Of a stretch of DNA of 64,000 nucleotides, positions 14,270 to 37,894 are shown one piece after another. Every line of letters begins with the position of its first letter. Position 1 is the first letter of the stretch. This DNA comes from an uncultured Opitutia bacterium (GTDB lineage: Bacteria > Verrucomicrobiota > Verrucomicrobiia > Opitutales > Opitutaceae). The position numbers were made by a program, and so were the translations under genes. The notes beneath the pieces were generated by a model. That model was not told where the DNA came from. It did no database searches and saw nothing but the letters and a program-made list of their open reading frames with translations. The DNA lies in assembly GCA_903902745.1 (NCBI GenBank), contig CAIUWA010000012.1, positions 1 to 64,000 on the forward strand. Reading direction: 5' to 3'.

Positions 14270-16492
14270 TCAGAGCAGCGGCGCGTTGTTCTTCGGGTCG
14301 TTGAGCAGCGCCTCAAACGGCGGATAGCCCTGCATTGCTTTGAGCGCCCAGCTGTTGCGGATGATATAGACGTTAAGCCCGCTGGGAATCTTCAGCAGGC
14401 GCGCAAATTCGGCCACGGCCCGGTCCTTCTCCCCCGTCTGGGCCAGGATGAATGCGATATCCCACCCTCCCCGCACGAGGTTCCGGTTTATGCCCGCCTT
14501 CTGTTCCGCGGCACGCGCCGCCTCCGCCGTGTCAATGGCCGCCTGCTTTTCCCCCAGCAGGATCAACAGTCCGGGATCCGGCGCCAGATTGTCCGGCTCT
14601 GCCTTGCGTCGGGCTTCGATGGCTCTGGCCAGCTCCTGGGCCCGAACCGTCTCACCCAGCGCCGTCAGCGCGTTGGCATACATGATTTGATCACCCGGCC
14701 TGAGCATGCCGGTCGCACTCCGCTGCCGGGCCTCATCCAGCAGCTTGATATATTCCGCCGCATTCCCGGTGAAAAACCGCCAGGTAGAAAGCGCATCGGA
14801 ATTCGCCTCGGGATGCGTCGCGAACCAGGCATCCATCTCCCGGGTCGAACCCCGCTCGTAAAACGGCAGCAACGCGAGGTAATAGCCGTCGGAGCCGGGA
14901 TCCTCGCGTTCCAACCGCACGACCTCGTCGTAGCGGCGAATATCCAGGAGCCATCCGAACAGGACCGTGCGCATGAGGGAGTTCCGGCGGTCAAGTTCGT
15001 AGGCCTTTCGATAGTGGACCAGCACATCCACCGCCCGGCCGTTGCGCCGGTCCGCCTCGGCCTGCAGCAGCGCCACCAGGCCGTTGTTGGGCAGCGCCCG
15101 GGCCGCCCGCTCCAGGTAGCCGTCCGATCGCGCGTAGTCCATGGCGTAGGGGGCCAGATAATAGGTCGCCAGCTTGAGCCAGGTCTCCGGGTCATCTGGC
15201 GCGAGGCGCTCCATGGTTTCGATGGCCCGCCGGGCCTTTTCCGGGCGGGTCTTGTCGCCAGCCCGGCGATAGAGCGGAGTTTGGATGACGGCCAGCTCCC
15301 CCCAGGCCGCCGCAAAATTCGGATCCAGGTCCACCGCACTTTGGAACAGGGGTTCCGCCCGGGTCAGCGTGTCGAGGTTCCGACCCTCGTTATTAAGTAT
15401 TTCCCGGGCCCGGAGATAATTATCATAGGCAGCCGTATTCGTGGTCGGCGCGCGTTCCAGCCGGCTCTTTTCACCGGGTGAAAGCTTCGCCTTGAGGGCG
15501 CTCGCTATCTCCTCCGCGAGGGCGGTCTGGACCGCAAAGATGTCCTTCAGCGCCACCGCCCGGTCATAATGTTGCGCCCACACATGCCCCTCGGTGCGGG
15601 CATCGATCAACTGACCCGTCACGCGCACCGTGTCGCCTGCACGCTGGACGCTGCCTTCGAGGACATACGCCACCCCGAGTTCCACGCCAATCTGGCGGAT
15701 GGTCTTTTTCGTGTCGCGATACTGCCCCACCGAGGTGCGCGAGATGACCTGGAGATCGCCGATATTCTGCAGGCTCGTCAGGATGTCTTCCTGCACGCCA
15801 TCGGCAAAGTATCCGTTTTCCTTGTCCTCGCTCATGTTGGTGAACGGCAGGACCGCGATTGACTTGGCGGAGAGGGCGGGATTTGCGGCTGCGTCCGGCA
15901 CGGACGGCTTGGCGCCGGGGCGCTGCAGCCAGAACCATCCGCCCGCAGCGATCAGCAGGGCGACGGCCATCGCGATCCCGACGACCCTTTTTTCGGGTTG
16001 GCCCGCAATTTTCAGTTCGGGACGCCCCGCGGCCGGCAAAGCCGCATGCTGCGGTTTCTCCAGCAGGGCACGCACGCGCTCGACGAACGCGGTGCCCGGC
16101 ACGCCGCGGGGCAGGCGCGTCCACTGTGTTTTCAGAAATGACTCTGGCACCAGCGCCCCGGTCGCGGGTGTCTCATCGATCGCGACGGGAAGCAGGAATG
16201 ACGTGCCATCGGCCATGAGGTGCGTGCGCTCCTCCGCCAATTTCCATTCCAGCCGGAAATAGCCCTCCCGCTGCGCCTGGGTGTTCGCCGAGATCACGGG
16301 AATGAACAGCGCGCACTCCTTGATCTGCCGACGGATTTTCTGGTCCCAGGCATCGCCGCCTTCCAACCCGTCCTGGTCGAACCACACCTCCACGTCGAAC
16401 GCCGCCAGCGCGTCCGCAATCCGTCGCGCCGCCGCCATGTCCAGGCGCGAATAGCTCAGAAAGACGGCTTGCGGGTGACCGGCGGGATTCAT
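14270..16492 (-). CDS. TIR domain - transmembrane - TolB/FlgO-like - TPR protein (TIR paralogue D)
   Basis: A 740-residue protein. TIR domain is at about 8-145: 'AVFLSYSRLDMAAARRIADAL', 'VEVWFDQDGLEGGDAWDQKI', 'ALFIPVISANT', then 'EGYFRLEWKLAEER', where a Glu (82 or 87) is a candidate NADase residue. A single membrane helix (about 169-189) is followed by the domain found in 'adenylate cyclase'-annotated TPR proteins (208-330; 'KSIAVLPFTNMSEDKENGYFADGVQEDILTSL'), then TPRs to the end. Probably a cytoplasmic TIR with an exported or membrane-bound sensor half. It is the 3'-most member of a tandem TIR family and is flanked by direct repeats. Function is not established; NAD cleavage or signalling is an inference. 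Confidence 0.85.
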   Translation of the reverse strand: MNPAGHPQAVFLSYSRLDMAAARRIADALAAFDVEVWFDQDGLEGGDAWDQKIRRQIKECALFIPVISANTQAQREGYFRLEWKLAEERTHLMADGTSFLLPVAIDETPATGALVPESFLKTQWTRLPRGVPGTAFVERVRALLEKPQHAALPAAGRPELKIAGQPEKRVVGIAMAVALLIAAGGWFWLQRPGAKPSVPDAAANPALSAKSIAVLPFTNMSEDKENGYFADGVQEDILTSLQNIGDLQVISRTSVGQYRDTKKTIRQIGVELGVAYVLEGSVQRAGDTVRVTGQLIDARTEGHVWAQHYDRAVALKDIFAVQTALAEEIASALKAKLSPGEKSRLERAPTTNTAAYDNYLRAREILNNEGRNLDTLTRAEPLFQSAVDLDPNFAAAWGELAVIQTPLYRRAGDKTRPEKARRAIETMERLAPDDPETWLKLATYYLAPYAMDYARSDGYLERAARALPNNGLVALLQAEADRRNGRAVDVLVHYRKAYELDRRNSLMRTVLFGWLLDIRRYDEVVRLEREDPGSDGYYLALLPFYERGSTREMDAWFATHPEANSDALSTWRFFTGNAAEYIKLLDEARQRSATGMLRPGDQIMYANALTALGETVRAQELARAIEARRKAEPDNLAPDPGLLILLGEKQAAIDTAEAARAAEQKAGINRNLVRGGWDIAFILAQTGEKDRAVAEFARLLKIPSGLNVYIIRNSWALKAMQGYPPFEALLNDPKNNAPLL

Positions 16493-16703: not shown

Positions 16704-19700
16704 TCACTTCCGCGCCGCCTGCTCCTTCAGCAACTGCGCCAGTGTCGCGCGCGCGGCCTTGTATTCTTCGGTGCGGCCATTTTTCGCCAGTATTTGAGCA
16801 AAGCGCGGATCCTCGCGCCACGGATCCCACATCGTCCCCCAGTAAATTCCAAGCTGCAGAACCGGCTGCGTTTGCCCTAGGAACGGGAGCGCTTCGTCGA
16901 AACGGCCCAACGCCACCAAAACCCAGCCCCGCATATAGCTGCCACTCGGCAGGCGCGCGAAGACCTCCTTGGCGTAATCCTCCGCCTCGCGCTCGAAGCC
17001 CGCCTGGCGCAGCACAAAAATCGCGTTGGGATCCGCGTCCCAGCGCGGACGCAGCTCGCCGTTCCGGCGAGCCCGGCGTGCCGTCTCCACCGCCTCGTCC
17101 TTCCGCCCCAGGGCCAGTAAAGCCTCGGCGACGTATCCGAGGCTGGGGATGAAGATGTCCGTCTCCGCCCGCAGGGCCGCCGCCCGCGTGGCGGTCTTGA
17201 GCGCGTCCCCGTAACGCTGCGCCGACACCAGTCCCTTGAGGTAAACCTGGTAGTTGATGAACCAAAGCGGATCGAGTTCGGCTGCTTTTTCGTATTCCAG
17301 CAGGGATTCGTCGATTCGCCCCAACGCGGTCAGGATATTACCATGCCAGCACCGCACGACGGGATCGTTGGGGTTCAATGCCAGGGCCCGCTGAAACTCC
17401 TGCTCCGATTCGGCCAGCCGGTTCCCGACCGACAAACCGAAGCCCAGCACCGCATGCGGCTCGGCCAGCGTGGGATCGAGATCGATGGCCCGCTGCGCTT
17501 CCGCTCGCCCTCTGCCCGCGTCCGCGGGATTGGCGTCGTAGCCATCGAGCAACCGGTATTGGTCCCGGATCACGCAGACGCCCGCCAGTCCCGAATGGGC
17601 CTCGGCGTATTTGGGGTCGATTTCGATCGCCTTCACGAACGCGGTCTCCGCCCGCGCGAATCCCTCGTCATTGCGGAGGTTCCAGAAATAACGTCCCTCC
17701 AGCACCAGCCGGTGCGCCTCCGGATCGACCGTCCGCACCACCCGCGGCGTGTCGCCCATCTTGAGCTGCAGGTTCTTCGCGATCAGCCCCGCGATCTCGT
17801 CCTGCACGGCGAAGATGTCCTTCAGCTCGCGCGTGAAGGTGTCCGACCAGACATGGAACCCGTCCGCCGCGCTGATGAGCTGCGCCGTGATCCGCACCTG
17901 CGTCCCCGCCTTCCGCACGCTGCCCTCGACGACGTAGGCCACGCCGAGTTGCTTGGCGATGTCCGCCATCGGCACCTGCTTGCCCTTGAAATAAAACGCC
18001 GACGTCCGCGCCGCCACCTTCAGGCCCGGGATCTTCGCCAGCACATTCAGCAGTTCCTCGCTGATGCCGTCGGAGAAATACTCGTTCTCCGTGTCGCCGC
18101 TCAAATTCGCGAATGCCAGCACGGCGACGGACTTTTGATCTACCTTTGTCGGAGATTCCGCCGGCGACGGCGCCCCGGGCTTTCGGTTTTCCGCGCTTTT
18201 CATTTCCTCGACCAGCTCGGCATAGCCCGGCTGGTCGTGCAGCGGCGCCCAGCGCAGCTCGACCGCGAGCAGCGCGGCGGAAACCCCGCCCCACTCGCTC
18301 CGGTAGGAAGAGTGGCGCAGCACCTCGATGGCGCGGACCGGGGCGCCCAACCGGGCGTAAGCGTCGGCGACATACTCCGCCGTCCCCGTGTTGCCGCCCT
18401 TGCCGGTCAGGTGGTTCGAGACCTGGCGCAGCCGGGCATCCGCGGCGCACGCGTCGGCGACCGTCCGGGCCTCCGCCGTGCGGTGTTCCCCGGCGAGAAT
18501 GACCGCGAGCATCGAGCGCCATTGGATCTCCGCGGGATCGGCGGCCATTTTCTCGCGCACGATTCGTTCTGCAGTCTGCCATTGTTCCGTGGCGAGTTCG
18601 GGGTGCCCGGCCAGCTCCTGCGCCTGCGCAATCAGGAACGCCTTCGGGCCAACAAAGAAGTTGTCCTCCAGGTAGTCGACCGCGAGGTCCGATATCACCC
18701 GCACGGCCGTGGCGGCGTCGCGCTGCAGCATGGCGGCATAGTAACGCACAACCGCCACCCGCGGTTCGTCCCGGCGGATCTCCGGCACCCGGTCCAACCA
18801 GCCGATCATTTTCACGGGATCGGCCGTCCGCAGGCTCTCGACTCCGGCCCGATAGACGAAGGTTCGCCAAAATGGCTGCGCCGCGATCGCGTGTTCCAGC
18901 GCCGCGGCGGCATCGTCGAATCTCCCGGAAAATGCAAACTGGTCCCCGGCGTAGTAAAACAATTCCGCCGGTCGTGGCACCCGGGCGGCCATGTCCAGCA
19001 GCATCTGTCCGCGTGCCGCCTGATCCGGCAGCTGCCACGCTTGCGCGATGATGACCCGGACGTTTTGCGGATCGGCGGCCTGCGCGCGGTCGAGGTAGTC
19101 CTTGGCCTGGGCGTTTTCGCCGACCGCGAGGCGACGCAGGCCCAGCGCCAGCAGGGCGTCGACGGAACGCGGATCCAGCCTCAGCGCGTTTTCGCCGTCC
19201 GCCTGGGAGCGGACCAGGCGCTCCCGGTTCAAATCATAGGCCCGGGCAAAAAGATACTGGTTGAGCAGAGCCGATGCGCCCCACGCCGACCCGGACAAGG
19301 GCGCCAGCTCGGTGGCGCGCTTCAGGAGTTTCTCCGCGAGGAAGAATTCGGTGCGACCGGAATCAGGGTCGTAGATGAGCTCGCGCGCCTTCTGGACGTC
19401 TTGGTCGGCCTCGCTGGGCGCAGGCGCGGTCGTAGCCGGCCCGGCGCCCGCATTCGACGCCGGGTTTGTTTCGCCGTGGCGCCGGGAGATGAAAACGACG
19501 ACGGCAACGGCCACGACTGCCGCGATGACCCAGGCCAGCCGCCCGCGGAGCGACCGGCCCGCCTCCGGCAGATTTCGGGGCGCGATACCCTCAGCGCGCG
19601 CCGATGAACTCACCTGCGCCGCCTCCTGCTTCAGCACGCCGGTGCGGTGCGACCAGAGTTTCAGGAAGCGCGCCTTCACGTCGGGTGGCACCTCTCCGCC

Positions 19701-20003
19701 GCGGAGCCGCGTCCACTGCACGGTGCGAAAACGATCCGGCACAAGCGCGTCGGGTTCGCGCGTGTCGTCGATCACGACGGGCAGGATGAACGGCACACCC
19801 GCCGCGATGCCGCGCGCCCGCTCCGCCGCGAGATCCCACTCGATGCGGAAATAGCCCTCATGCCGCGCCTCCGTGTTCGCCGAGATGACCGGGAGGAACA
19901 GCACGCACTCCTTGATCTGCCCGCGGATCTTCCGGTCCCACTCGTCGCCGTGCTCCAGCCCGCCGTCCGCATCGAACCACACCTCCACGCCCGCCTGTCT
20001 CAA
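16704..20003 (-). CDS. TIR - transmembrane - TPR - TolB/FlgO-like - TPR protein (TIR paralogue C), 5' end damaged
   Basis: At least 1099 residues from a TTG at 20003, but the TIR fold clearly continues upstream in the same frame ('AVFLSYASQDAEAAKRICD') to a stop at 20115-20117, with no ATG, GTG or TTG there. An ATG at 20092 (MSQRS) is one frame off. So the start is either frameshifted or lost. Domains from the TTG: rest of TIR (1-115), membrane helix (155-173), TPRs (190-600), TolB/FlgO-like domain (about 619-745; 'KSVAVLAFANLSGDTENEYFSDGISEELLNVLA'), second TPR array (750-1090). The middle part looks like a fusion of two TPR modules. Role unknown. Confidence 0.75.
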   Translation of the reverse strand: MRQAGVEVWFDADGGLEHGDEWDRKIRGQIKECVLFLPVISANTEARHEGYFRIEWDLAAERARGIAAGVPFILPVVIDDTREPDALVPDRFRTVQWTRLRGGEVPPDVKARFLKLWSHRTGVLKQEAAQVSSSARAEGIAPRNLPEAGRSLRGRLAWVIAAVVAVAVVVFISRRHGETNPASNAGAGPATTAPAPSEADQDVQKARELIYDPDSGRTEFFLAEKLLKRATELAPLSGSAWGASALLNQYLFARAYDLNRERLVRSQADGENALRLDPRSVDALLALGLRRLAVGENAQAKDYLDRAQAADPQNVRVIIAQAWQLPDQAARGQMLLDMAARVPRPAELFYYAGDQFAFSGRFDDAAAALEHAIAAQPFWRTFVYRAGVESLRTADPVKMIGWLDRVPEIRRDEPRVAVVRYYAAMLQRDAATAVRVISDLAVDYLEDNFFVGPKAFLIAQAQELAGHPELATEQWQTAERIVREKMAADPAEIQWRSMLAVILAGEHRTAEARTVADACAADARLRQVSNHLTGKGGNTGTAEYVADAYARLGAPVRAIEVLRHSSYRSEWGGVSAALLAVELRWAPLHDQPGYAELVEEMKSAENRKPGAPSPAESPTKVDQKSVAVLAFANLSGDTENEYFSDGISEELLNVLAKIPGLKVAARTSAFYFKGKQVPMADIAKQLGVAYVVEGSVRKAGTQVRITAQLISAADGFHVWSDTFTRELKDIFAVQDEIAGLIAKNLQLKMGDTPRVVRTVDPEAHRLVLEGRYFWNLRNDEGFARAETAFVKAIEIDPKYAEAHSGLAGVCVIRDQYRLLDGYDANPADAGRGRAEAQRAIDLDPTLAEPHAVLGFGLSVGNRLAESEQEFQRALALNPNDPVVRCWHGNILTALGRIDESLLEYEKAAELDPLWFINYQVYLKGLVSAQRYGDALKTATRAAALRAETDIFIPSLGYVAEALLALGRKDEAVETARRARRNGELRPRWDADPNAIFVLRQAGFEREAEDYAKEVFARLPSGSYMRGWVLVALGRFDEALPFLGQTQPVLQLGIYWGTMWDPWREDPRFAQILAKNGRTEEYKAARATLAQLLKEQAARK

Positions 20004-20050: not shown

Positions 20051-20215
20051 TCAGGAAGACCGCTTTGTGCTCGTCGCTGATCGTTGAGACATTGCGCGCC
20101 TTGTCCTCCGGAGCTCAACGAGCGAAGGAGGAAGCGCCTCGCAGATGTGCCGCGCCGCCTCCGCGTCCTGCGAGGCATACGACAGAAATACCACTTTGTT
20201 CGATCCCTCGTTCAT
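20051..20215 (-). pseudogene. Remnant of a further TIR gene (paralogue B), about 28 codons
   Basis: ATG 20215 (overlapping the stop of paralogue A as ATGA) begins MNEGSNKVVFLSYASQDAEA and continues ARHICEAL, the first strand and helix of a TIR domain. The frame then runs into a REP-like unit (20101-20133) and ends at 20051 after unrelated residues. Its DNA differs from the matching part of paralogue C at many synonymous sites, so it is the head of a distinct gene rather than a fresh duplicate. The rest has been deleted. Confidence 0.7.
20101..20133. repeat. REP-like unit at the junction of TIR paralogues B and C
   Basis: On the minus strand: CCTCCTTCGCTCGTTGAGCT then CCGGAGGACAA, a short hairpin-forming unit. 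It matches the dispersed 'TCCTTCGCTC..GAGCT.CGGAGGAC' word that I associate with verrucomicrobial genomes, and is related in shape to the unit inside RecD2 (4988). It sits exactly where the B reading frame leaves TIR homology. Confidence 0.6.
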
Positions 20216-21090
20216 GCCCGCTTCACCATCTGAGCGTCCGGTTGGCCGCGGTTTTCCACCACGGCAAACGGTGAACGATTCCAAATGTCCCGTGCCTTCA
20301 GACAGGGGCCGTAAGCCGCCAGGTTGACCCTGGGGGCGCGGTCGATCCGGGCTTTTTCCTGCGGCGAGAGTGCAGCCACTCCCACTGAAACGGCTCCCAT
20401 TTTTGTATCCCGGGCAGGGCCGGAAGCGAGATGCCGCCACCACCAGACTGCCACTGCTCCGACGATCAAAATTCCGGCAAGGACGGCCCAGGCCCACCGG
20501 GGAAAATCTCCCTGGCGGCGTCCGAACCCGATCCGGTGTAACGGGGCCGGTTGCTGAGTCTCTGCAGAAGCCGCGGTTACGTTCTCGGCCGGAGCGGAAG
20601 GCACGGGGTCCCCCTTGCGTTGCCCGGTGCGGGGACGTCCCACCAGCAGGCGCTTTACCTGATCCACAAACTGCGGCGTCGGCAGGGCGCCCGGCAGGCG
20701 CGTCCACGGCACTTGCATGAATTCCTCGGGTACCGCCGCGCCTTGTTCCGGGGTGTCGTCGATCACGACTGGAACAAAAAACGCGACCCCCGCCGCCATG
20801 TCGGGTGTCCGACTGACGGCCACCTTCCACTCGTGCCGGAAATTGCCCTCCTGGCGTTCCTGAGTCGTGGCGGAAATCACGGGCAGGAAGAGCGCGCACT
20901 TCTGGATCTGGTGTCGGATCTTCGCATCCCATGCATCGCCGCCGCGCAGTTCATTGTGATCGAACCACACTTCCACGTCCTGGCTCCGCAGCGCATCGGC
21001 AATGCGCCGGGCCGCGGCGGTGTCCTCGCGCGCGTAACTAAGAAACACGGCGCGGGGGGCGGATGCAGGCGTGCTGGAATCGGCCGACAT
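20212..21090 (-). CDS. Short TIR - transmembrane protein, internally deleted (TIR paralogue A)
   Basis: A 292-residue protein from ATG 21090. TIR is at about 13-150 ('AVFLSYAREDTAAARRIADAL', 'VEVWFDHNELRGGDAWDAKI', 'ALFLPVISATT', 'EGNFRHEWKVA'), a membrane helix at about 199-218, then 'LSPQEKARIDRAPRVNLAAY' (241-260). In paralogue D the equivalent 'LSPGEKSRLERAPTTNTAAY' comes only after the whole TolB/FlgO-like domain. So about 150 residues have been cut out precisely, and the TPR tail is also lost. It may still work as a minimal membrane TIR protein. The stop overlaps the ATG of remnant B, implying former translational coupling of the array. Confidence 0.8.
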   Translation of the reverse strand: MSADSSTPASAPRAVFLSYAREDTAAARRIADALRSQDVEVWFDHNELRGGDAWDAKIRHQIQKCALFLPVISATTQERQEGNFRHEWKVAVSRTPDMAAGVAFFVPVVIDDTPEQGAAVPEEFMQVPWTRLPGALPTPQFVDQVKRLLVGRPRTGQRKGDPVPSAPAENVTAASAETQQPAPLHRIGFGRRQGDFPRWAWAVLAGILIVGAVAVWWWRHLASGPARDTKMGAVSVGVAALSPQEKARIDRAPRVNLAAYGPCLKARDIWNRSPFAVVENRGQPDAQMVKRA

Positions 21091-21181
21091 TGTTAAGTGA
21101 CGAATGCCACCGCGGCTTACACCTTGCCAGCCCAAACCCCTGCCAGCACGCGCTGATGCCAATCTGCTGCATTCCAAACCT

Positions 21182-21285
21182 GGTTTCACACAGAGGCACG
21201 GAGGACACAGAGTTGGGAAGCCCCAACCCAACGATGATTGGGTGACCGGAAGTTCTCCGTGATCTCCGTGCCTCTGTGTGAAACC
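21182..21285. repeat. 'GGTTTCACACAGAGGCACGGAG' long palindrome
   Basis: Left arm GGTTTCACACAGAGGCACGG and right arm CCGTGCCTCTGTGTGAAACC are exact complements over 20 bases, with further pairing (GGAGGACACAGAG / CTCCGTGATCTC) inside. It occupies the 281-base divergent gap between TIR paralogue A and the M16 peptidase gene. No promoter motif was picked out with confidence. Confidence 0.8.
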
Positions 21286-21371
21286 TGATCGATGGGCATC
21301 CGCCGCATCCGCAAACGGCTTGGCCTCGCGGCACTCTTGGCTACGGTGCCGGTCGCAAGTCCCCATCCCGC

Positions 21372-26813: not shown

Positions 26814-26889
26814 CCGGATGATCAGATGGTCTGAGGGCCTGATCTTTCCGCTTCAGACCATCCGATCATCTGAACATCCGATCAACCGG
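26814..26889. repeat. 'CCGGATGATCAGATGGTC' palindrome, copy 2
   Basis: Same arms as 24237-24312 (CCGGATGATCAGATGGTCTG; CAGACCATCCGATCATCTG) with a diverged loop. It lies 25 bases after the multicopper oxidase stop and 65 bases before the SLOG gene. Confidence 0.8.
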
Positions 26890-26953: not shown

Positions 26954-28474
26954 ATGCTGCGCCCCTGGGTATTCGTAGGATTCACGGGAAACCGGATGCT
27001 GGAAAAGCCCGAACTGATCGGTCCCCGGATCGATGAGGCCTTGCGCCGCATCGCGGCCCACACCCGGGCGCCGCTCGCCGCCGTGTCCTCCGCGGCCAAG
27101 GGTGCGGATACGCTGTTTGTCGAGACGATCCTGCGGCGGGAAATTCCCTGGGTGCTGCTGCTGCCGTTCGCGGCCGAGGAATTTTTCAACGCCGAGGATT
27201 TTTCCCCGGAGGATTTGCGCCGCATCGAGCCGCTGGTGCCGAAGGCGGTCCGCACGCACATCGAGGCTTCCCCCGCGACCGGCCTGCCCCTGAAGGATCA
27301 GCGCGTGAACGCGTTTGCGGATTGCAGCGCGCGCACCGTGGACACCGGCGACTATTTGATCGCGGTCTGGGACGGACAGCCCGGCAAGCCCGGCGGCACC
27401 GGCGGCACCGTCGCGTATGCGCGCGAGCAGAAGAAACCCCTGGTGTGGATCCACGCGGTCACCGGCGAAATTCAGGAGGAGAATTTTCCCGCGCCGTCGA
27501 CCGACCCGGTTCCGACCGCTGCGGGCCTGGCGCGGAATCCCGTGGAGGGCGGCCTGCAGGTCCTGCAGGCCACCATGAATCACCATGACAAACTGGCGAT
27601 GCAGCACAGCCCGCACGCCCGCCAGCTCGTGACGGTGGTCATTTTCCTGCACCTGGCCGCCACGGCGGTCGGCGTGGTCGAGCCGGTGTTCCTGATTCCG
27701 GCCTGGATCGCGGTGTTCGCCGTGATGTTCAAGGTGACCACGCTGATTGGGGCCCAGGCCTTCAGCCACCGGCAGCATCATGCCAAGGGCGAATGGCTCC
27801 GCGCGCGCATCATCGCCGAGCTTTGCCGATCCGCGGAGGGCACCTGGTACCTGCCTTACTCGGACAAGGTCAACCAAGCCGTGATGGTGCCCGGCTTCCG
27901 GGAATGGCAGCGCACGCTCGCCCTCTGGCGGGTGATCGCTCCGCCGGAAACCAGGGGATTAGCCGCCCAACGCGATGCCTACATGGAAGTCCGGCTCGAC
28001 AACGAGAAGACCGGCCAGATCCCTTATTTCGAACGGCAACTGAAGCGCGCGGAGATAAAACTTTTCTCCCGGCAGAAAGTTGCCCGCCGCAGCACCACGA
28101 TCGCCATCGTGTGTGCAGCGGTGGTGCTGCTCATGAAGGGCCTGTCCGTGCTCTGGCCCGAAGGTCACCTCGTCCACGAATTCGAGCGCCTGCAATTCGG
28201 GCCCGTCACGCTGGAGCAGTGCCTCGAGTTCTCCTCCCTGGTGCTGCCGCTCCTCAGTGCCGCGGTTTTCACCTGGCTCATGGCCAGCGACTGCCAGCGC
28301 CGCGTCGAGCGCAACCGCGAGATCCTCGCCTACCTGCAAGCCGCGCGGGAGCGGATCCGGCGGGCCACGACCTGGAGCGGGCTGGAACGCCGGGTGGCCG
28401 AAGTCGAGACCACGCTGCTGCTGGAGGTGCTGGAGTGGCACTCGATCACCCACTTCACCGCCAGCGCACACTGA
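26954..28474 (+). CDS. SLOG-domain protein with four transmembrane helices (SLATT-like)
   Basis: A 506-residue protein from ATG 26954 (an in-frame TTG at 26939 is less likely). The N-terminal 190 residues form a Rossmann-like SLOG domain: 'VFVGFTGNR', 'AVSSAAKGADTLFVE', 'DYLIAVWDGQPGKPGGTGGTVAYA', a nucleotide-ligand site related to TIR/DprA-like sensors. Two hydrophobic pairs follow (about 224-262 and about 380-400 / 425-443), the second resembling the 2TM SLATT (DUF4231-like) pore domain. The C-terminal helix is amphipathic. In known conflict systems SLOG senses a nucleotide and SLATT forms a membrane pore. The stop is five bases from the patatin start, so the two are an operon. Confidence 0.75.
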   Translation: MLRPWVFVGFTGNRMLEKPELIGPRIDEALRRIAAHTRAPLAAVSSAAKGADTLFVETILRREIPWVLLLPFAAEEFFNAEDFSPEDLRRIEPLVPKAVRTHIEASPATGLPLKDQRVNAFADCSARTVDTGDYLIAVWDGQPGKPGGTGGTVAYAREQKKPLVWIHAVTGEIQEENFPAPSTDPVPTAAGLARNPVEGGLQVLQATMNHHDKLAMQHSPHARQLVTVVIFLHLAATAVGVVEPVFLIPAWIAVFAVMFKVTTLIGAQAFSHRQHHAKGEWLRARIIAELCRSAEGTWYLPYSDKVNQAVMVPGFREWQRTLALWRVIAPPETRGLAAQRDAYMEVRLDNEKTGQIPYFERQLKRAEIKLFSRQKVARRSTTIAIVCAAVVLLMKGLSVLWPEGHLVHEFERLQFGPVTLEQCLEFSSLVLPLLSAAVFTWLMASDCQRRVERNREILAYLQAARERIRRATTWSGLERRVAEVETTLLLEVLEWHSITHFTASAH

Positions 28475-28479
28475 CGGAC

Positions 28480-29580
28480 ATGAAGCGCATCCTCTCGCTC
28501 GATGGCGGCGGCATCCGCGGGATGTTCAGCCTGCAGATCCTCGCGCGCATCGAGCAGGTCTTCCGGGAGAAACGCGGCCGGCCCGGGCTCGTGCTGCGGG
28601 ATGAGTTTGACCTCATCGCCGGCACCAGCACGGGTGGGATCATCGCCACCTTTCTCGCCTGGGGCCTGCCGGTGGCGGAGATCGACGACCTCTACACCCG
28701 GTTTGGCGCCGCGATGTTCACGCAGGCCGGCTGGCTCGACCGGCTCTGGAAGAACAAATACAATCCCGAGACCATCGCACAATTTTTCAAGGAACGCTTC
28801 AGCGAGGACGATGGCACGCCCGCCCTCCTCGGCACGCGCAAGCTCTGGGCCGGTGGCGTTCCGAAGTACCTCGTGCTCGTCATGCGCAACGCCACCACCG
28901 GCTCGGCCTGGCCGGTCAGCAACAATCCGGCCGCCGAGTATAACCGGGAGTCGCGCCCGAACTGCAACCTGCGCCTGCCCCTCTGGCAGCTGCTGCGGGC
29001 CAGCACGGCCGCGCCCACGTTTTTTCCGCCCGAGGAGATCACGTTCCCGGGATGCGACCCGCAGATCTTCATCGATGGCGGCATCACGCCCTACAACAAC
29101 CCCGCCCTCATCGCGTTCCTCATGGCCACGCTGCCCGGCTACAAGCTCGAGTGGCCCGCGGGGCGCGACCGGATCCAACTCGTCTCCGTCGGCACGGGCC
29201 AGGTGCGCCAGCGGCTGCCCGACAAGGAGGCCCGCGAATTCCACCTGCTCGACCACGCGAAGTATGCGACCCCCGCGCTCATGGCCTCCACCAACCTCGA
29301 GCAGGACCTGCTCTGCCGCGTGCTGGGCGAGTGCCTGGCCGGCGGCGAAATCGATCGGGAGCTGAAGTCCCTCATGCCGTCGGGCCTGCTCGCTCCGGCG
29401 GAAAAAAAATTCACGTACCTCCGCTACGACCAGGCCTTCACCGTGGCGGAAATTGAAAAAATTGAGCAGGACACCCAGCTCAAGTTCGGCCTAGACAACC
29501 TCGGCCTGATCGAGCCCCTGCGTGCGCTCGGCCGCGCCTACGCCGCGAAGCACGTTGAGCCCGCGCACCTGGTCCCGTGA
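28480..29580 (+). CDS. Patatin-like phospholipase
   Basis: A 366-residue protein from ATG 28480. Oxyanion motif GGGIRG is at 9-14, nucleophile elbow GTSTG at 48-52 (Ser50) and the dyad Asp in 'FIDGGITPYNNP' near 199, so the catalytic site is complete. No signal peptide. It resembles CapV-like cytoplasmic patatins that degrade membrane phospholipids when activated. Five bases separate it from the SLOG gene, suggesting that the SLOG partner controls it. No cGAS-like nucleotidyltransferase is nearby, so a standard CBASS call is not supported. Confidence 0.9.
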   Translation: MKRILSLDGGGIRGMFSLQILARIEQVFREKRGRPGLVLRDEFDLIAGTSTGGIIATFLAWGLPVAEIDDLYTRFGAAMFTQAGWLDRLWKNKYNPETIAQFFKERFSEDDGTPALLGTRKLWAGGVPKYLVLVMRNATTGSAWPVSNNPAAEYNRESRPNCNLRLPLWQLLRASTAAPTFFPPEEITFPGCDPQIFIDGGITPYNNPALIAFLMATLPGYKLEWPAGRDRIQLVSVGTGQVRQRLPDKEAREFHLLDHAKYATPALMASTNLEQDLLCRVLGECLAGGEIDRELKSLMPSGLLAPAEKKFTYLRYDQAFTVAEIEKIEQDTQLKFGLDNLGLIEPLRALGRAYAAKHVEPAHLVP

Positions 29581-29583
29581 GTT

Positions 29584-29659
29584 GCCGGTGGTGAGGCCGA
29601 ACCAATCAGGTAAGGGTTGAATATTTTTCGGCCTCCGGCGTAATGCGGACGCCACCGGC
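29584..29659. repeat. Palindrome between patatin and lipoprotein genes
   Basis: Outer arms GCCGGTGG / CCACCGGC and inner arms GAGGCCGAA / TTCGGCCTC are perfect. It fills the 87-base gap before the GTG start of the lipoprotein gene, so cotranscription with patatin is possible but interrupted by a strong potential hairpin. Confidence 0.65.
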
Positions 29660-29667
29660 TTCCCCCT

Positions 29668-31077
29668 GTGTCCACCGCCCCTTCCGCTTCTTCCAGTTTT
29701 CGACCCCGCTGGCAGTTTGCCGCCTTGGCCCTCGCGGGCCTGGGCCTCGCCGGGTGCGTCACCAAGCAGCTGGTGCCGGACTTCGCGACCTACTCCGAGG
29801 CCTACGCGCACGACCTGAACTGGCAGATGCTCCTCAACCTCGCGCGACTCGACCAGGGACATCCCGCCTACTTCATGGCGATCGGCGAAATCCGCCTGTC
29901 CCGCACCCAGGCGGCGAGCCTGCAGGGCAGCGGCACCTCCAGCCATACCGAGGCGCAGACCGTGACCAGTTCCATCTCACGCACCGTCACGAACGTCCTC
30001 GCCGGCACGCTCACGCCCAACGTCTCGAACAACGCGGTCCCCACCTACAGCATCATCCCTCTCAACAGCGAGGACACCGCGCAGCAGCTGCTCCAGCCGA
30101 TTTCGATCGAGGTGTTCAACACGCTCTACCAGCAGGGCTGGCCCGTGGACCAGCTCCTGCGCGTGCTGGTCGAGCGGATTGAGCTGGAGCGGACCGATGG
30201 CGTGCGCCTCGTGCTGCACAATTCGCCCACCCGCGCCGCCAACCCCGCCTCCTTCGCGCGTTTTCTGCGCGCCTGTGAAGTCGTGCGCGAACTGCAAAAA
30301 CGCGGCGGGCTGCAACTCGTGAGTGATGAAGTTCCCTCCCCGTCCACGGCCGAACCCGCCGGCCCGGGCGGACCCGCCACGCGTGGCGGAGGTCCGGCGG
30401 CGGATGCGCCGGCCGGTGGTGCCAGGGGTAGCGGCCGCCCGGGAGCGGGATCGGCCGCCGCGAACCGGCCGGCGGTCGGCGGCGGCAGCCAGTCCACCCG
30501 GGATTCCCGGGCCGCGGAGGCCTCGCACCCGGTTTACCACTTCCGCGCCAATCCGCAGATTCTCGAGGAGGTGCTCGCCGGCTTCGCCCGGGATGAAAAA
30601 TACGCGGGGGGCAGCACGGTGGAAAATTTCCGCGAGGTCTTCCGCTCGAGCCTCACCGTCGGCTCGGGCGCCACTGTCGACCAGGCCGGCGAGCTTGAGT
30701 CCGGCGGACGACGCGGGCCGCATTCGGTGCTCGTGCTGCGGTCGTTCCGCAACGTGCTCGACGCCGTCGCGCAGGAGCAGCGCGCGTTCGACGAGCTCGC
30801 GAAAAAGGATCCCTCGTTTCTCCCGCAGATTCCCGAGCGCCAGCAGCGGCCCGTGCTGCGCACCGACTGGTCCGGCCAAAAGGCTTCACTGCTCAAACCG
30901 GTCGCCGAGCTGAAATATTTCGGCAACACCTACCAGATTACCGACCACGCCGGCGAGCCCACCTCCCTCGACAACCGCTGGAACCGTGACGTGTTCCGCC
31001 TGCTCATCGACCTCTCCTCGCAGGTGACCGTGGACATCACGAAATTCCAGCGCCAGGTGCTCGAGCTGTCGCAGTAG
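29668..31077 (+). CDS. Lipoprotein of unknown function downstream of patatin
   Basis: A 469-residue protein from GTG 29668. Signal peptide with lipobox LAGC (Cys30). The mature N-terminal part is helical ('YSEAYAHDLNWQMLLNLARLDQGHPAYFMAIGEI'), followed by a Ser/Thr-rich segment and a helical region. A Gly/Pro/Ala-rich linker (about 220-285) precedes a C-terminal domain ('HPVYHFRANPQILEEVLAGFARDEKY ... SVLVLRSFRNVLDAVAQEQRAFDELAKKDPSF'). I do not recognise the family. Its place after SLOG and patatin in the same direction suggests a third component acting in the envelope, but this is inference. Confidence 0.65.
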   Translation: MSTAPSASSSFRPRWQFAALALAGLGLAGCVTKQLVPDFATYSEAYAHDLNWQMLLNLARLDQGHPAYFMAIGEIRLSRTQAASLQGSGTSSHTEAQTVTSSISRTVTNVLAGTLTPNVSNNAVPTYSIIPLNSEDTAQQLLQPISIEVFNTLYQQGWPVDQLLRVLVERIELERTDGVRLVLHNSPTRAANPASFARFLRACEVVRELQKRGGLQLVSDEVPSPSTAEPAGPGGPATRGGGPAADAPAGGARGSGRPGAGSAAANRPAVGGGSQSTRDSRAAEASHPVYHFRANPQILEEVLAGFARDEKYAGGSTVENFREVFRSSLTVGSGATVDQAGELESGGRRGPHSVLVLRSFRNVLDAVAQEQRAFDELAKKDPSFLPQIPERQQRPVLRTDWSGQKASLLKPVAELKYFGNTYQITDHAGEPTSLDNRWNRDVFRLLIDLSSQVTVDITKFQRQVLELSQ

Positions 31078-31162: not shown

Positions 31163-31720
31163 ATGAAAACAATTCCCCGTTTCCTCGCGGTCATCGCCAC
31201 CGCCCTGTCTCTCGCTTCCACTGTTCTGGCTCAGCTCACGCCTTCCCTGAACCCGATCCCCGCGCCCACGCCCGCAACTCCGGCGCAGCCTGCCCAAGCG
31301 GTCGTCCGGCAGCCGGCGGTCGCAGCAGCCGTAGCGGTTTCGGCGCCCAAGGAGCTCCCCCAGTGGCATGGGCCGAATGGCGGCGATCCCGATTTCGGGA
31401 CCGAGGTGATCCGCAGCGCGAAGCAGTGGGAAACCTTCTGGCAGCGCGTCGACAAGGCGGTACCCCACAAGCTCGACGAAGCCACCGAGATGGCGGTGGT
31501 GGTGTTCGCCGGCGAGCGCCCGACCGGCGGCTTCATCGTGAAGATCACCGACAGCTTTGTGGAAAAGGAAACCCTGGTTGTCGTCTATGAGGTCCAGGCG
31601 CCCGGACGGGAAACGTTCGTCACGCAGGCCCTCACCCATCCGTGGGGCACGGCCATCCTGCCGCGTAGCGACCGGCCCATGGTCTTCCGTCAGGCGGCCA
31701 AGAAGCCCGCTGGAAACTGA
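31163..31720 (+). CDS. Secreted PrcB_C-domain protein
   Basis: A 185-residue protein with a signal peptide (about 1-23, ending TVLAQ), then a Pro/Ala-rich spacer (24-62). The C-terminal 115 residues match the PrcB C-terminal domain: 'EMAVVVFAGERPTGGFIVKITDS', 'ETLVVVYEVQAPGRETFVTQALTHPWGTAIL'. In PrcB this domain accompanies secreted protease complexes; here no protease is adjacent. Probably a periplasmic or surface protein. It ends one base before the converging pRiA4b-like gene. Confidence 0.75.
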   Translation: MKTIPRFLAVIATALSLASTVLAQLTPSLNPIPAPTPATPAQPAQAVVRQPAVAAAVAVSAPKELPQWHGPNGGDPDFGTEVIRSAKQWETFWQRVDKAVPHKLDEATEMAVVVFAGERPTGGFIVKITDSFVEKETLVVVYEVQAPGRETFVTQALTHPWGTAILPRSDRPMVFRQAAKKPAGN

Positions 31721-32617: not shown

Positions 32618-34999
32618 ATGACTCCCCGCCGCCCTGAAATCTTCGTCAGCGCCACCAGCCAGGACCTGCGGACCTGCCGGCAGCTCATCAAGGAGGCGCT
32701 GCTCACGCTGGGCTGCACGCCCGTCGAGCAGACCAATTTCCCGCCCGAGGCGCGCACCGTGCGCGAGATGCTTCGCGCGAAGATCACCGCGTGCGACGCC
32801 GTGGTCCACGTCGCCGGCGAGGTCTACGGCGCGGAGCCGCGTGACCGCGATCCCGCGGACTCCCGGCGCAGCTACACCCAGCTCGAATACGACCTCGCGA
32901 AGGAGCTCGGCAAGCCGGTCTACGTTTTCGTCTGCGGCGCGGGCTTCCCCTACGATGAGCACGCTCCGGAAGACGCGGAGAAGCAATCCCTCCAGCAGGA
33001 ACACCGGGCCCACCTCCAGCAAAGCGATCATCACTACACGCCGGTCAGCTCCCGCGATGAACTCGCGCTGCGCATCCACGCCCTGCAGACGCGGGTCGAG
33101 TCCCTCAGCGGCGAACTGAAGAAAACCCGCTCCTGGCTTGGCCGCGGCGTCGCGATCGGCCTGCTCGCCCTTGCCCTGCTCGGCGGCGGACTCTGGTGGT
33201 TGAACCAGCGCACCGGCAAAACCGAGGGCAAGGTCGCCCAATTGGAAACCGCGCTCGACCAGCAGCGCCGCTACATCAAGTCCGTCGCCGACGCCTACAC
33301 CCAGCAGCAGTCCGAGCTGGAGAAGCTGAAGCTCACCGACGAGCAGAAGTTCGACCGCGCCCTTGCCGCCGTTGCGTCGAAGGAAAAGATCCCCGAGGCG
33401 GACCTACGCAGCGGCATCAACCTCTTCGTCGTCGCGGTGCGCGGCGACCCGAAGGCGGACTTCTATGACCGCGCGCTGGCCGAGTTTGCGCAGAAGAACT
33501 TCACGGCCGCCGCCACCAGCGCGGGCCAGGCCGCCACGGCCGCGCGCGACCAGTATCTCGCGGCTGACAAACTGGCCGCGCAAGCCGCGGAGAAGGCGGA
33601 CGAAGCGCGCACCCGCGCCCGCAGCGCCTTCAGCCTCCAGGGCCAGGCCTACTTTGCCGGTCGGAAGTTTCCCGAGGCGGTCACCGCCTTCGAAGCCGGG
33701 CTCGAGGCCACCCCGCGTGCCACCCACGACCGTGAATGGGCGTATCTTCAGACCCGGATCGGGCTGGCCGCGAACGATTGGGCCGCCGTCTCCACGGGCG
33801 TCGCCATCGCGGAGCGCAACGCCAAAGCCGTCGTCGCCTACCGCGCCGCCCTCGAAGTTTATACCCGCGAGGCCTTCCCCCAGGACTGGGCCAAGACCGA
33901 GGACAACCTCGCCAACACACTCCATGACCAGGCCAGTGCCACCTCCGGGCCCGAGCATGCCCGGCTGCTCGCCGAGTCCGCCGCCGCCCATCGCTCCACC
34001 CTCGCGGTCCTGACACGCCAGGACTTGCCGCAAAACTGGGCCGCCACCCAGAACAACCTCGGCGGCGTGCTCAACGACCAGGCCGCGGCCAGCACGGGAG
34101 CCGAGCGCGACCGGCTCATGGCCGAGGCCATCGCCGCGTTCCGCGCCGCCCTCGAAGTCCGTACGCGAGACACCCTGCCCAAGGACTGGGCCCTGACCCA
34201 AAGCAACCTGGCCGAAGCGCTGCGGACTCAGGCGGCCGGCCGGCCCCAGCCCGAACGCCTCCGGTTGCTCACCGAGGCCATCGCCTCCCACCGGGCCTCG
34301 CTCGAGGTCCGCACCCGCACCGAACTGCCCGAGGACTGGGCCATGTCCCAGCTCAACTTGGGCGCCGCGCTCAGCGACCTGGCGGATGATTCCACCGGAC
34401 CGGAGCGCGCCCGGCTCCTCGCCGAGTCCATCGCGGCTGAGCGCGCCGCCCTCGAAGTCTACACCCGCGACCAATTTCCCCAGGACTGGGCCATGGTTCA
34501 GGTCAACCTGGGAGCGTCCCTCCGCACTCAAGCCACCGACAGCAGCGGCCCCGAGCGTGCTCAGCTGCTCACCGAGGCCGGCGCCGCCTATCGCTCCGCC
34601 CTCAGCGTCTACACCCGCGCAGCCCTGCCCCAATACTGGGCCACGATCCAATACAATCTGGACTTCGTCCTCCGCGATCAGGCCGCCGCCGCCACGGGAC
34701 CCGAGCGCACCCAGCTCCTCGCCGAGCGGGTCGCGGCCAATCGGGCCTCCCTGGAGGTCCGCACCCGCGAAGCCTTCCCGCGGGACTGGGCTTCCTCCCA
34801 GCACAATCTGGCCGGCGCGCTCCGCACCCAGGCCGCCGACACCACCGGCCCCGAGCACGCCCGCCTCCTGCGCGCCGCCATCGCGGCCGAGCGCGCCGCC
34901 ATGGAAATCTTCACGGCCGCCGCCTACCCCAACTGGTACCAGGAGCAAGTCGCTTGGATCACCGCGGCCGACGCGGAACTCTCCCGCTCGGCACCCTGA
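32618..34999 (+). CDS. DUF4062 - transmembrane - tandem-repeat protein
   Basis: A 793-residue protein. Residues about 5-110 are DUF4062 ('EIFVSATSQDLRTCRQLIKEAL', 'CDAVVHVAGEVYG', 'RRSYTQLEYDLA'), a TIR/SLOG-like fold used in NLR-type defence proteins. A membrane helix is at about 175-195 and a coiled coil at about 200-235. Residues 413-762 are seven repeats of exactly 50 residues with the consensus 'EV.TR...P.DWA..Q.NL...L..QA....GPER..LL.E.IAA.RAAL', a TPR-like superhelix. The TIR-WD40 gene begins 12 bases after the stop, so the two form an operon. Likely a sensor/scaffold; target unknown. Confidence 0.85.
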   Translation: MTPRRPEIFVSATSQDLRTCRQLIKEALLTLGCTPVEQTNFPPEARTVREMLRAKITACDAVVHVAGEVYGAEPRDRDPADSRRSYTQLEYDLAKELGKPVYVFVCGAGFPYDEHAPEDAEKQSLQQEHRAHLQQSDHHYTPVSSRDELALRIHALQTRVESLSGELKKTRSWLGRGVAIGLLALALLGGGLWWLNQRTGKTEGKVAQLETALDQQRRYIKSVADAYTQQQSELEKLKLTDEQKFDRALAAVASKEKIPEADLRSGINLFVVAVRGDPKADFYDRALAEFAQKNFTAAATSAGQAATAARDQYLAADKLAAQAAEKADEARTRARSAFSLQGQAYFAGRKFPEAVTAFEAGLEATPRATHDREWAYLQTRIGLAANDWAAVSTGVAIAERNAKAVVAYRAALEVYTREAFPQDWAKTEDNLANTLHDQASATSGPEHARLLAESAAAHRSTLAVLTRQDLPQNWAATQNNLGGVLNDQAAASTGAERDRLMAEAIAAFRAALEVRTRDTLPKDWALTQSNLAEALRTQAAGRPQPERLRLLTEAIASHRASLEVRTRTELPEDWAMSQLNLGAALSDLADDSTGPERARLLAESIAAERAALEVYTRDQFPQDWAMVQVNLGASLRTQATDSSGPERAQLLTEAGAAYRSALSVYTRAALPQYWATIQYNLDFVLRDQAAAATGPERTQLLAERVAANRASLEVRTREAFPRDWASSQHNLAGALRTQAADTTGPEHARLLRAAIAAERAAMEIFTAAAYPNWYQEQVAWITAADAELSRSAP
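33854..34903 (+). repeat. Seven exact 150-bp coding repeats
   Basis: Units start at 33854 and every 150 bases up to 34754, ending at 34903, with no length variation. Each opens with a codon pair for EV/AV/SV followed by TR and a P.DWA motif (DWA, NWA or YWA). DNA divergence between units is visible, so the array is not a very recent expansion, but the constant length points to amplification of one 50-codon module. Confidence 0.85.
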
Positions 35000-35011: not shown

Positions 35012-37894
35012 ATGAGCACGCCTTACAAATACTGGGCCTTCATCAGCTACAGCAGCAAGGACCGGGCGTGGGCGGAGTGGCTGAGCCGGTCGATCGAAAC
35101 CTACCGGGTGCCGGTGGCGCTGAGGGGCCGGCCCACTTCGCGAGGGGAGCCGGTGCCGGCCCGGGCTTTCCCGGTTTTTCGCGATCGCGAGGAATTGCCG
35201 ACCAGCGCGGATCTTGGAGGCGTGATTAACGCGGCGCTCGAGCAAAGCCGCTATCTGGTGGTCATCTGCTCGCCTCGCAGCGCGCAGAGCCGCTGGGTCG
35301 AAAAGGAGGTGCTCGAATTCAAGGCCCTCGGACGGGAAAACCGCGTGCTGGCCCTGATCATCGACGGCGAACCCAACGCCAGCGAAGCCCGGGCCGCGGC
35401 CGAGTGCTTTCCGGCCGCGTTGCGCTTTCAGGCCGGCCCGGATGGCAGCCTCACGGACCAGCGGGTCGAGCCGATCGCCGCTGACGCACGGAAATCCGGC
35501 GACGGCCGGCACAAGGCGTTGCTCAAGGTGATTGCCGGTATCATCGGCGTCGATTTCGACCTGCTGTTTCAACGCGAACGGCGGCGCCAGCGTATGCGGC
35601 GGTTGCAGCTCGTCACGCTGCTGGCGGCCTGCGCCGGCGGAATTTTTTCCTTCTCGCACTACAAGGACGGGCAGCGGATGGCCCTGGCCCGGGAAAACGA
35701 GCAAAAGGCCCGGGTCGTGGCCGCCCAAGCGGACGCGGAGCAAGGCGACCGCAGCGACCGGGAAGGCAATCCGAACGAGGCGCTCGCGTGGTTTGCGCAG
35801 GCGCTGCGGGAGGATCCGGCCAATCCCTGGGCGGCGCAGCGCTTGGCGACATTGCTGCGGGATCTGAACCATCCCGTGCCCCTCGCCCGTTTCCGCCTGC
35901 CCGACCGGAATGGAGTCGAAATCATGGCAGCACCGGACGGGTCCGGGTTCGCCGTCACCGACGATGCCCACGGCGTGCAATGTTTCGCCCTGCCCTCGGG
36001 CCAGCCGTGGTTTGCGCGGTTGGTGCTGCCCGGACCCGTGCGCTCCTTCGCCTTCAGCGGGGACAGTTCGCGGCTGGCCATCATCTGCGAGGAGGACCAC
36101 GGCGGCCCCATCGCCAGCGGTTTTCTCTGGCTCGCCATCCTCGATCCGCATTCGGGAGTTTATGTGAAGGCTCTGGAGCGCACGGATTGCCAGGAGGTGA
36201 CGGGCGAAGGGGCGGACTCCACCTTCCTCACCGTGAGCGGTTACCGGGTGCAGGCCTGGGACGCCGCCACTGGCAAGCTCAAGTACGGGTCCGAAAGAAA
36301 GGAAATCGTCCGCGCCGCCACGATGGCCGAGGAGGGCCGGCGCGTGTTCGAAGCCTGCGCCGACAACGTGGCCAGGATCATCGACCTTTCCACCGGGGAA
36401 ATCACCGGCACGCTGCCGCACCTAGCGGAAGTGCGCGCGATTTCCTACGGCGCCGGAACGAAGCAGGTGGCCACCGGCTCGGAGGACGGCATCGCGCGAG
36501 TCTGGGACGCCAGCACCGGCGAAGCCCTGACGCCACCCCTGCGGCATCCGGGTCCGGTGGCATTCGTCCAACTCGATCCGGGCAGCCCCCGACTCGTCAC
36601 TGTCACGCGGGACGATCTCGTCCAGCTCTGGGACACCCGCACGGGCGAGCGGCTGGCAGGACCGAAATCCCTCGGTGGCAATTGGAGCACCGCCGCCTTC
36701 AATTTTCCCGGCCTGCTGATTCGGGCCCGGGGGGCCGGTGTCACGGTCCTCAGCTCGGTGACCGGCGAAATCCTGTTCACCCCGCTCCGAAGCGAGACCG
36801 ATCTACAGGCGGCCGACTGGTCCGACCGTTCGGGCTCCGGCCAAAAAATCCTCACGCTGGCGAACTCCCACGAGATCCACCTTTGGGACGTGGCGCCGCG
36901 CTGGGTGAAGCCGGTGGAGATGATGCATGCGTCCGAAGTGCGATCCTTCGCCGTCAGCCCCGACGGCCTGCAACTGGCTGCCGGCTGCGCCGATGGCACC
37001 GTGCAGGTCTGGAATCCCGCCACCGGGGTAAAACTGGTTTCCCTGCCGGCCCAGGGTGGCGCCGTACAGCGGGTGCGTTTCGTCACCGATCGCAGCAACT
37101 TCGAGGATCCGCCTCCCGGCAACCTCATCGAAACCGACACGGACCGGCGCAGCGATCTCTGGAGCGCGGAGACCGGGGTGCATTTTGGCGGCGGAGAGGG
37201 CACGAGTGATCGGGCGGTGGCCTACATGGATTTCGGCGAAACCTGGGGACGCTGGTCGGCCGACCGGCGGTTTCAGATCTCCGCGCGAGTGGACAACCAG
37301 GTTTACGTCCTCGATGGCAACCGGAAGCCCGTGGCCCCGGCCATCAAACTGCCGAACGTGCCCAAGGACGGCATCCTCTCCGCCGACGGCTCCCGGCTTC
37401 TGCTCTGGTCGGCCAATGGCATGGTCCAGATCTGGGATGTACCCAGCGCGTCGGCCATCGGCCATGCGATGGTAGAAAACGCGCCCGTGACCGACGCGAA
37501 TTTCAGCCCGGACGGGCGCTACGTCGCCGTCGCCTGGGAAAATGGTGCCGTTCGTCTCTGGGATGCGGCGACCGGCCGGGCGTTGACCGAGTCCCTGCAT
37601 CACCCCGGACCGGTCGGACAACTGCAATTTACCTCCGACAGTCGGTCGCTCCTGACCCGCGCCCGCAACGGTGTCTTCAAGTGGGCTGTGCAATCCGTCG
37701 CACCCGTGCCGGTGCCGGCCTGGATTCCGGATCTCGCCGAAGCGGCCGCTGGCGTCAAAGTGGACGCCGCCGGCAAGATCGTGCCGCTGGGCCGGGATCC
37801 CGTTGAGGCTTTCGCCGCGGTTCGCGCCACCCTGAGCAAGCTCCCGCAGGCGGATGGCTGGACGCAACTGGGCCGGCTCATCACCGGCGACTAG
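35012..37894 (+). CDS. TIR - transmembrane - WD40 repeat protein
   Basis: A 960-residue protein. TIR domain is at about 5-180: 'YWAFISYSSKDRAWAEWL', 'VFRDREELPTSADLGG', 'YLVVICSPRSAQSRWVEKEVLEF', in which Glu99 follows the conserved S.SRWV and is the candidate NADase residue. A membrane helix is at about 199-214, a Lys/Gln/Ala helix at 220-270, then WD40 blades from about 290 to 930 ('VATGSEDGIARVWDASTGEAL', 'QLAAGCADGTVQVWNPATG', 'YVAVAWENGAVRLWDAATGRAL'). TIR with WD40 is typical of bacterial NLR-like or signalling ATPase-free effectors. Operon partner of the DUF4062 gene. Expected: propeller senses, TIR acts. Confidence 0.88.
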   Translation: MSTPYKYWAFISYSSKDRAWAEWLSRSIETYRVPVALRGRPTSRGEPVPARAFPVFRDREELPTSADLGGVINAALEQSRYLVVICSPRSAQSRWVEKEVLEFKALGRENRVLALIIDGEPNASEARAAAECFPAALRFQAGPDGSLTDQRVEPIAADARKSGDGRHKALLKVIAGIIGVDFDLLFQRERRRQRMRRLQLVTLLAACAGGIFSFSHYKDGQRMALARENEQKARVVAAQADAEQGDRSDREGNPNEALAWFAQALREDPANPWAAQRLATLLRDLNHPVPLARFRLPDRNGVEIMAAPDGSGFAVTDDAHGVQCFALPSGQPWFARLVLPGPVRSFAFSGDSSRLAIICEEDHGGPIASGFLWLAILDPHSGVYVKALERTDCQEVTGEGADSTFLTVSGYRVQAWDAATGKLKYGSERKEIVRAATMAEEGRRVFEACADNVARIIDLSTGEITGTLPHLAEVRAISYGAGTKQVATGSEDGIARVWDASTGEALTPPLRHPGPVAFVQLDPGSPRLVTVTRDDLVQLWDTRTGERLAGPKSLGGNWSTAAFNFPGLLIRARGAGVTVLSSVTGEILFTPLRSETDLQAADWSDRSGSGQKILTLANSHEIHLWDVAPRWVKPVEMMHASEVRSFAVSPDGLQLAAGCADGTVQVWNPATGVKLVSLPAQGGAVQRVRFVTDRSNFEDPPPGNLIETDTDRRSDLWSAETGVHFGGGEGTSDRAVAYMDFGETWGRWSADRRFQISARVDNQVYVLDGNRKPVAPAIKLPNVPKDGILSADGSRLLLWSANGMVQIWDVPSASAIGHAMVENAPVTDANFSPDGRYVAVAWENGAVRLWDAATGRALTESLHHPGPVGQLQFTSDSRSLLTRARNGVFKWAVQSVAPVPVPAWIPDLAEAAAGVKVDAAGKIVPLGRDPVEAFAAVRATLSKLPQADGWTQLGRLITGD

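Follow-up and report, generated by a model that had tools for sequence, protein, structure and literature searches.

The window, by which we mean the whole stretch of 64,000 nucleotides of contig CAIUWA010000012.1 from an uncultured Opitutia bacterium, contains three consecutive genes (26954 to 31077) for a SLOG domain protein with four transmembrane (TM) helices (SLOG-4TM), a patatin-like phospholipase and a lipoprotein. The three genes are one evolutionary module, since they co-occur in other genomes, and presumably they also act as one machine. The trio is probably a conflict effector cassette that serves defense or self-killing. For the narrower reading, in which it is the effector cassette of a nucleotide-signaled conflict system that is Thoeris- or CBASS-like yet neither of the two, we see about an even chance.

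A predicted SLOG sensor on four membrane helices

The SLOG-4TM protein (P0001; 506 amino acids; 26954..28474, plus strand) starts with ATG, and upstream of it an in-frame TTG is present at position 26939. Translation, TM scan, AF2 model, VIA-align and weak SLATT matches give a layout with a cytosolic Rossmann/SLOG domain at about residues 1 to 180, TM helices at about residues 224 to 270 and 376 to 444, and helical cytosolic segments. Four TM segments were found by both hydropathy and the AF2 model, which had a mean pLDDT of 81.5 with 13 relatives in the alignment. The closest solved fold to the SLOG domain was YpsA, with a Z score of 17.0 and an rmsd of 2.6 over 154 residues (VIA-align, P0001 residues 4 to 172); DprA and ShosA followed with Z scores of about 13, LOG with about 10 and the SLOG domain of ThsA with 8.0. 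The SLOG fold fused to four membrane helices that had been read from the sequence in the initial annotation is indeed present in the model. Plain Foldseek with the same model gave nothing at E ≤ 0.001 (top match ShosA, 1.8e-3), P0001 had no match among PDB sequences, and P0001 as the lone query found no relative in a search of genome contigs. PADLOC had no match for SLOG-4TM, and no ThsA match was obtained with NCBIfam and PADLOC.

P0001 matched SLATT_3 with 20.0 bits and SLATT_1 with 17.1 bits, both below the cutoff of 26.3 bits, yet 8 of 13 SLOG-4TM relatives matched SLATT_1 at E ≤ 0.01 (best E, 1.8e-7). Because of these two findings, "SLATT-like" seems a fair label for the protein, with SLATT membership short of proof. 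A glycine-rich nucleotide loop, GGT (G147 G148 T149), is invariant in the 13 SLOG domains aligned, and in all 13 the last glutamate of the LOG motif PGGxGTxxE, a mark of LOG-type phosphoribohydrolases, is replaced by T, V, I or F. Since this glutamate is missing throughout and since the SLOG domain of ThsA is established to bind 3'cADPR (PMC11204291), we infer that the SLOG head is a sensor and not an enzyme. TRPM channels likewise carry a SLOG-like head on TM helices, and TRPM structures were found at Z scores of about 7 to 8 (VIA-align), but TRPM channels are eukaryotic and their structural match to SLOG-4TM is weak.

A patatin related to CapV

Five bases (28475 to 28479) separate the SLOG-4TM gene from the gene for the patatin-like phospholipase (366 amino acids; 28480..29580, plus strand; ATG start; Pfam PF01734, E = 3.1e-26). 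The motifs GGGxxG, GTS50xG and D199-G are intact and invariant in the alignment, and the catalytic dyad is Ser50/Asp199; the complete patatin five bases downstream, as first annotated, was thus confirmed in both dyad and spacing. The protein has neither a signal peptide nor a TM segment. Its closest solved relatives are CapV proteins (PDB, 2.9e-26), and its nearest named relative is from an Opitutaceae MAG. The CBASS_lipase profile of NCBIfam matched it with an E value of 6.6e-35 and 120.9 bits, which is below the 200-bit equivalog cutoff, and a patatin copy from a related locus (L116) reached 112.2 bits against the same profile, again below 200 bits. A plasmid search with the patatin returned 260 records, many of them annotated as CBASS phospholipases; plasmid searches with P0001 and with the lipoprotein returned no relative.

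A lipoprotein family with a conserved lipobox

The lipoprotein gene (P0003; 469 amino acids; 29668..31077, plus strand; GTG start) follows after a gap of 87 bases. This gap holds a GC-rich hairpin (29584..29658, plus strand) that has no T-tract, a folding energy of −37.2 kcal/mol and a modest z score of −1.86; it may separate the expression of the lipoprotein gene. P0003 has the lipobox LAGC with the lipid-accepting position at Cys30, and the lipobox cysteine is at the aligned site in nine of nine family members, with no Asp at position +2. Lipoproteins without Asp at +2 are generally sorted to the outer membrane. Since P0003 lacks this residue, its sequence places it probably in the outer membrane. 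A Gly/Pro-rich insert is present at about residues 225 to 285; the idea that it arose by a frameshift was tried, and the other frames were unlike the relatives.

The family had no match in Pfam, NCBIfam or PADLOC, in line with the "unrecognized lipoprotein" of the initial annotation. The structure model of P0003 was poor (pLDDT of 55.7), and this low-confidence model had no match among solved folds with Foldseek and VIA-align, which does not by itself imply a new fold. Among 289 genomes of the phylum, only the window's own genome had the full-length lipoprotein; N-terminal relatives in these genomes belong to a separate lipoprotein group. In two loci of small-genome Opitutales (L083 and L086), lipoproteins akin to the N-terminal part of P0003 adjoin SurA/PPIase-like genes.

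Conservation of the three genes as a module

The trio recurs elsewhere, so that neither of the two outcomes named as refuting in the initial annotation (genes never found together again, a first protein without the SLOG fold) was observed. Ten complete trios were found, i.e., the one in the window, eight by a patatin-based search and one by an unbiased profile search; they range over Verrucomicrobiota and Acidobacteriota. The gene order is shuffled and may be lipoprotein-SLOG-patatin, SLOG-patatin-lipoprotein or SLOG-lipoprotein-patatin.

In the patatin-based search, four related patatins were used as queries on genome contigs, which gave 80 loci. In 29 of the 51 nearer loci (L105 to L155) and in 0 of the 29 distant ones (L156 to L184), SLOG and/or SLATT-like genes were within 2 kb of the patatin, with a p value of about 3e-8 for loci that are mostly on MAG contigs and not fully independent (L142 to L144 are near copies). 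In the patatin tree, the SLOG/SLATT-linked patatins grouped in a single clade (100/100) that excluded the distant ones. The junction of the SLOG-4TM and patatin genes is a gap of 4 to 5 bases or an overlap of 4 bases in many loci, and in eight loci (L116, L118 to L121 and L123 to L125) the lipoprotein gene adjoins the SLOG-patatin pair.

Because these loci had been found through the patatin, 200 genomes from a single Acidobacteriaceae family were searched with a lipoprotein profile and, separately, with a SLOG-4TM profile. Both profiles matched the identical four genomes (G526, G528, G569 and G675), with the two genes side by side each time; identical four-genome sets are expected by chance with a probability of about 1.5e-8. 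A patatin was adjacent in three of the four, and G569 (L211) provided the tenth complete trio. The fourth, G675 (L210), has a TIR-nSTAND1 gene, a lipoprotein fragment and a SLOG-4TM gene without a patatin and is a decayed or reduced copy of the module. C-terminal remnants of the lipoprotein lie upstream of SLOG-4TM genes in both L113 (4365-5996) and L210 (9811-10125), which suggests that these loci have lost the third component. In each of the eight other trio genomes, the single full-length lipoprotein copy was the one in the module. A housekeeping role of the lipoprotein, unrelated to the other two genes, was rejected on the basis of the 200-genome test. In the genome of L108, another short contig (L204:397-4515) carries a lipoprotein homolog divergent from a DUF4062-nSTAND1-WD40 gene, and with this contig the trio of L108 may be complete.

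TIR and DUF4062 genes near the module

A TIR domain (Pfam TIR_2) was within 2.5 kb of a SLOG-4TM relative in 12 of 16 genomes, compared to 0.08 expected (P of about 1e-25, with distances taken by hand from coordinates and with genomes of one genus that are not independent). The window's genome of 3.29 Mb has five TIR domains, and four of them are inside the window (Pfam). Two TIR-TM-TPR proteins (14270..16492 and 16704..20003, both minus strand; Pfam, TM scan) have homologs that adjoin SLOG-4TM genes in relatives. A TIR protein with one TM segment (20212..21366, minus strand; Pfam, TM scan) is a candidate signal maker, and so is a TIR-WD40 protein (35012..37894, plus strand; Pfam), which has kept SRWVEKE, a candidate motif for the catalytic Glu of TIR domains. 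A DUF4062-TM-TPR protein (32618..34999, plus strand; Pfam, TM scan) is a candidate sensor that may be associated with the module. The three minus-strand TIR genes lie in a row (14270 to 21366); each product has one TM segment, and two have TPR repeats. In most of the TIR/DUF4062 proteins of the window, one hydrophobic segment lies between the TIR or DUF4062 part and the repeats (the segment of the TIR-WD40 protein is marginal, at 1.64), which suggests cytosolic TIR/DUF4062 heads with the repeats across the membrane. The nearest TIR genes in the window are about 4 to 6 kb from the module, with unrelated genes in between.

Related loci were scanned with TIR, DUF4062 and nSTAND1 HMMs that had been built from module loci and are therefore biased to such loci; the counts of five TIR domains and of 12 of 16 genomes come from Pfam models instead. 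In L113 and L120, a TIR-nSTAND1-WD40 gene immediately precedes SLOG-patatin, and in L114 it precedes the patatin alone. Downstream of the patatin, L106 and L107 have TIR-SIR2 and nSTAND1-TPR genes and L108 has two TIR-WD40 genes; a DUF4062-nSTAND1 gene adjoins the module in L115, and L123 has a divergent DUF4062 gene. In four trio loci (L119/L212, L121/L214, L125/L216 and L211), the flanking DNA, which for some of them is a short contig, had no TIR-type gene. A CD-NTase cyclase was not found among the scanned neighbors of the window's module and of the related loci. The remark in the initial annotation that no cGAS-like synthase is present therefore stands for the window proteins scanned, but it overlooked the five TIR/DUF4062 proteins around the module.

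Proposed mechanism and alternatives

In the mechanism that we propose, a TIR or DUF4062 protein, often anchored in the membrane and equipped with TPR or WD40 repeats, would perceive the threat, and its TIR domain would convert NAD+ to an ADP-ribose-type nucleotide. This nucleotide would be bound by the cytosolic SLOG head, whose fold is predicted, whereupon the 4TM part could open or oligomerize and the patatin, in which the catalytic residues are seen, would cleave phospholipids of the inner membrane. The lipoprotein, with its lipobox and its probable place in the outer membrane, might extend either the damage or the sensing through the envelope. That a nucleotide is sensed, as proposed at the outset, agrees with a SLOG nucleotide-binding fold on the 4TM protein, but the generic endogenous nucleotide then envisaged is less likely than a TIR-made signal, given the clustering of TIR and SLOG-4TM genes and the fact that four of the five TIR domains of the genome flank the module. 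Carried further, the scheme would be an envelope-spanning TIR immunity in which an anchored TIR/DUF4062 protein makes an NAD-derived signal for a SLOG-gated pore that acts with a phospholipase and with a lipoprotein of the outer membrane, both membranes being hit in one step; this extension is speculative and we put little weight on it. Against the cassette model speak the trios without TIR genes, the distance of 4 to 6 kb in the window, the relatives without patatin and lipoprotein, the lack of a PADLOC match for SLOG-4TM or the lipoprotein, and the poor lipoprotein model.

Thoeris is alike in part: it has a TIR gene beside the gene of a SLOG domain effector, which here is seen within 2.5 kb in 12 of 16 SLOG-4TM genomes but not in the window or near several trios, and a TIR-made nucleotide is sensed by SLOG, as we assume here, but its effector ThsA, which acts with the TIR protein ThsB, is SIR2-SLOG or TM-macro and not SLOG-4TM with patatin and lipoprotein. 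CBASS shares with the module a patatin related to CapV, but here the sensor would be the separate SLOG-4TM protein and the patatin is below the CBASS cutoff. Because the effector is not SIR2-SLOG or TM-macro and the patatin has 120.9 bits versus the 200 needed, the module is assigned to neither system. It does fit the broader SLOG/SLATT nucleotide-centered conflict systems, which were reportedly laid out by Burroughs et al. in 2015: a SLOG domain comes with a SLATT-like TM effector unit, whereas for the conserved patatin and lipoprotein partners no description was found in the papers searched. Our literature search found no paper that joins SLATT, SLOG and patatin; a mention of SLOG with patatin in Burroughs 2015 is possible. 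SLATT is regarded as a nucleotide-responsive pore (PMC7159879, PMC9503650), and for TIR-SLATT neighborhoods, gating through derivatives of ADP-ribose has been predicted (PMC9503650). The TM-macro type of Thoeris effector has also been proposed to perturb the membrane (PMC11204291).

In another reading, SLOG-4TM and TIR would make up the system proper, a pair that resembles Thoeris and has a pore as its effector, and some lineages would have added patatin and lipoprotein as optional further effectors. TIR genes do adjoin SLOG-4TM relatives without patatin, relatives in the window's own family mostly lack both patatin and lipoprotein, and L210 has its TIR-nSTAND1 gene beside SLOG-4TM and a lipoprotein fragment, with no patatin. 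However, SLOG/SLATT genes track one patatin clade in Pseudomonadota, Gemmatimonadota, Acidobacteriota and Verrucomicrobiota, and so reveal a specific SLOG-patatin partnership, and we consider the pair reading possible at best. It is unlikely that the trio is an envelope-stress or lipid-remodeling module and not a defense system. SLOG-4TM would then sense a housekeeping nucleotide and control a phospholipid-trimming patatin, and lipids or signals would reach the outer membrane through the lipoprotein. Such a role would suit the several trios that stand alone among housekeeping genes (argJ, squalene/phytoene synthase, pilus-type genes) and the lipoprotein relatives next to SurA/PPIase-like genes in the two Opitutales loci, but the conflict cassette fits better because the spread is patchy (4 of the 200 Acidobacteriaceae genomes), the gene order is shuffled, a copy is degraded (L210) and TIR, nSTAND1, RyR, TPR-S and subtilase neighbors are typical of conflict systems. 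That SLOG-4TM is an antitoxin-like restraint on a toxic patatin, released on loss of a nucleotide, with the lipoprotein as a chance neighbor, would suit the tight, seemingly cotranslational spacing of the two genes, but it is highly improbable given that SLOG-4TM is widespread without patatin and that, in the search of 200 genomes, the lipoprotein gene was found in the same four as SLOG-4TM and next to it each time.

With the conflict cassette as the preferred reading, a conserved cross-phylum effector cassette is added to the nucleotide-signaled conflict systems, in which TIR signaling would be tied to a patatin phospholipase via a SLOG sensor and not via a cyclase. The lipoprotein family, which has no recognized fold, is a candidate for the envelope component. 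Provided that the proposed wiring is correct, the module would correspond to SIR2-SLOG Thoeris but be directed at membranes.

Other features of the locus

Upstream of the module, a palindromic repeat (CAGACCATCCGATCATC...) is present in two copies (24239 to 24309 and 26817 to 26886) that flank genes for a DUF4159 protein and a multicopper oxidase; the genome has no more than two occurrences of the exact 24-base core. The gene immediately following that of the lipoprotein encodes a PrcB_C domain protein (31163 to 31720), which resembles PrcB of the dentilisin complex at a score below the cutoff of that model.
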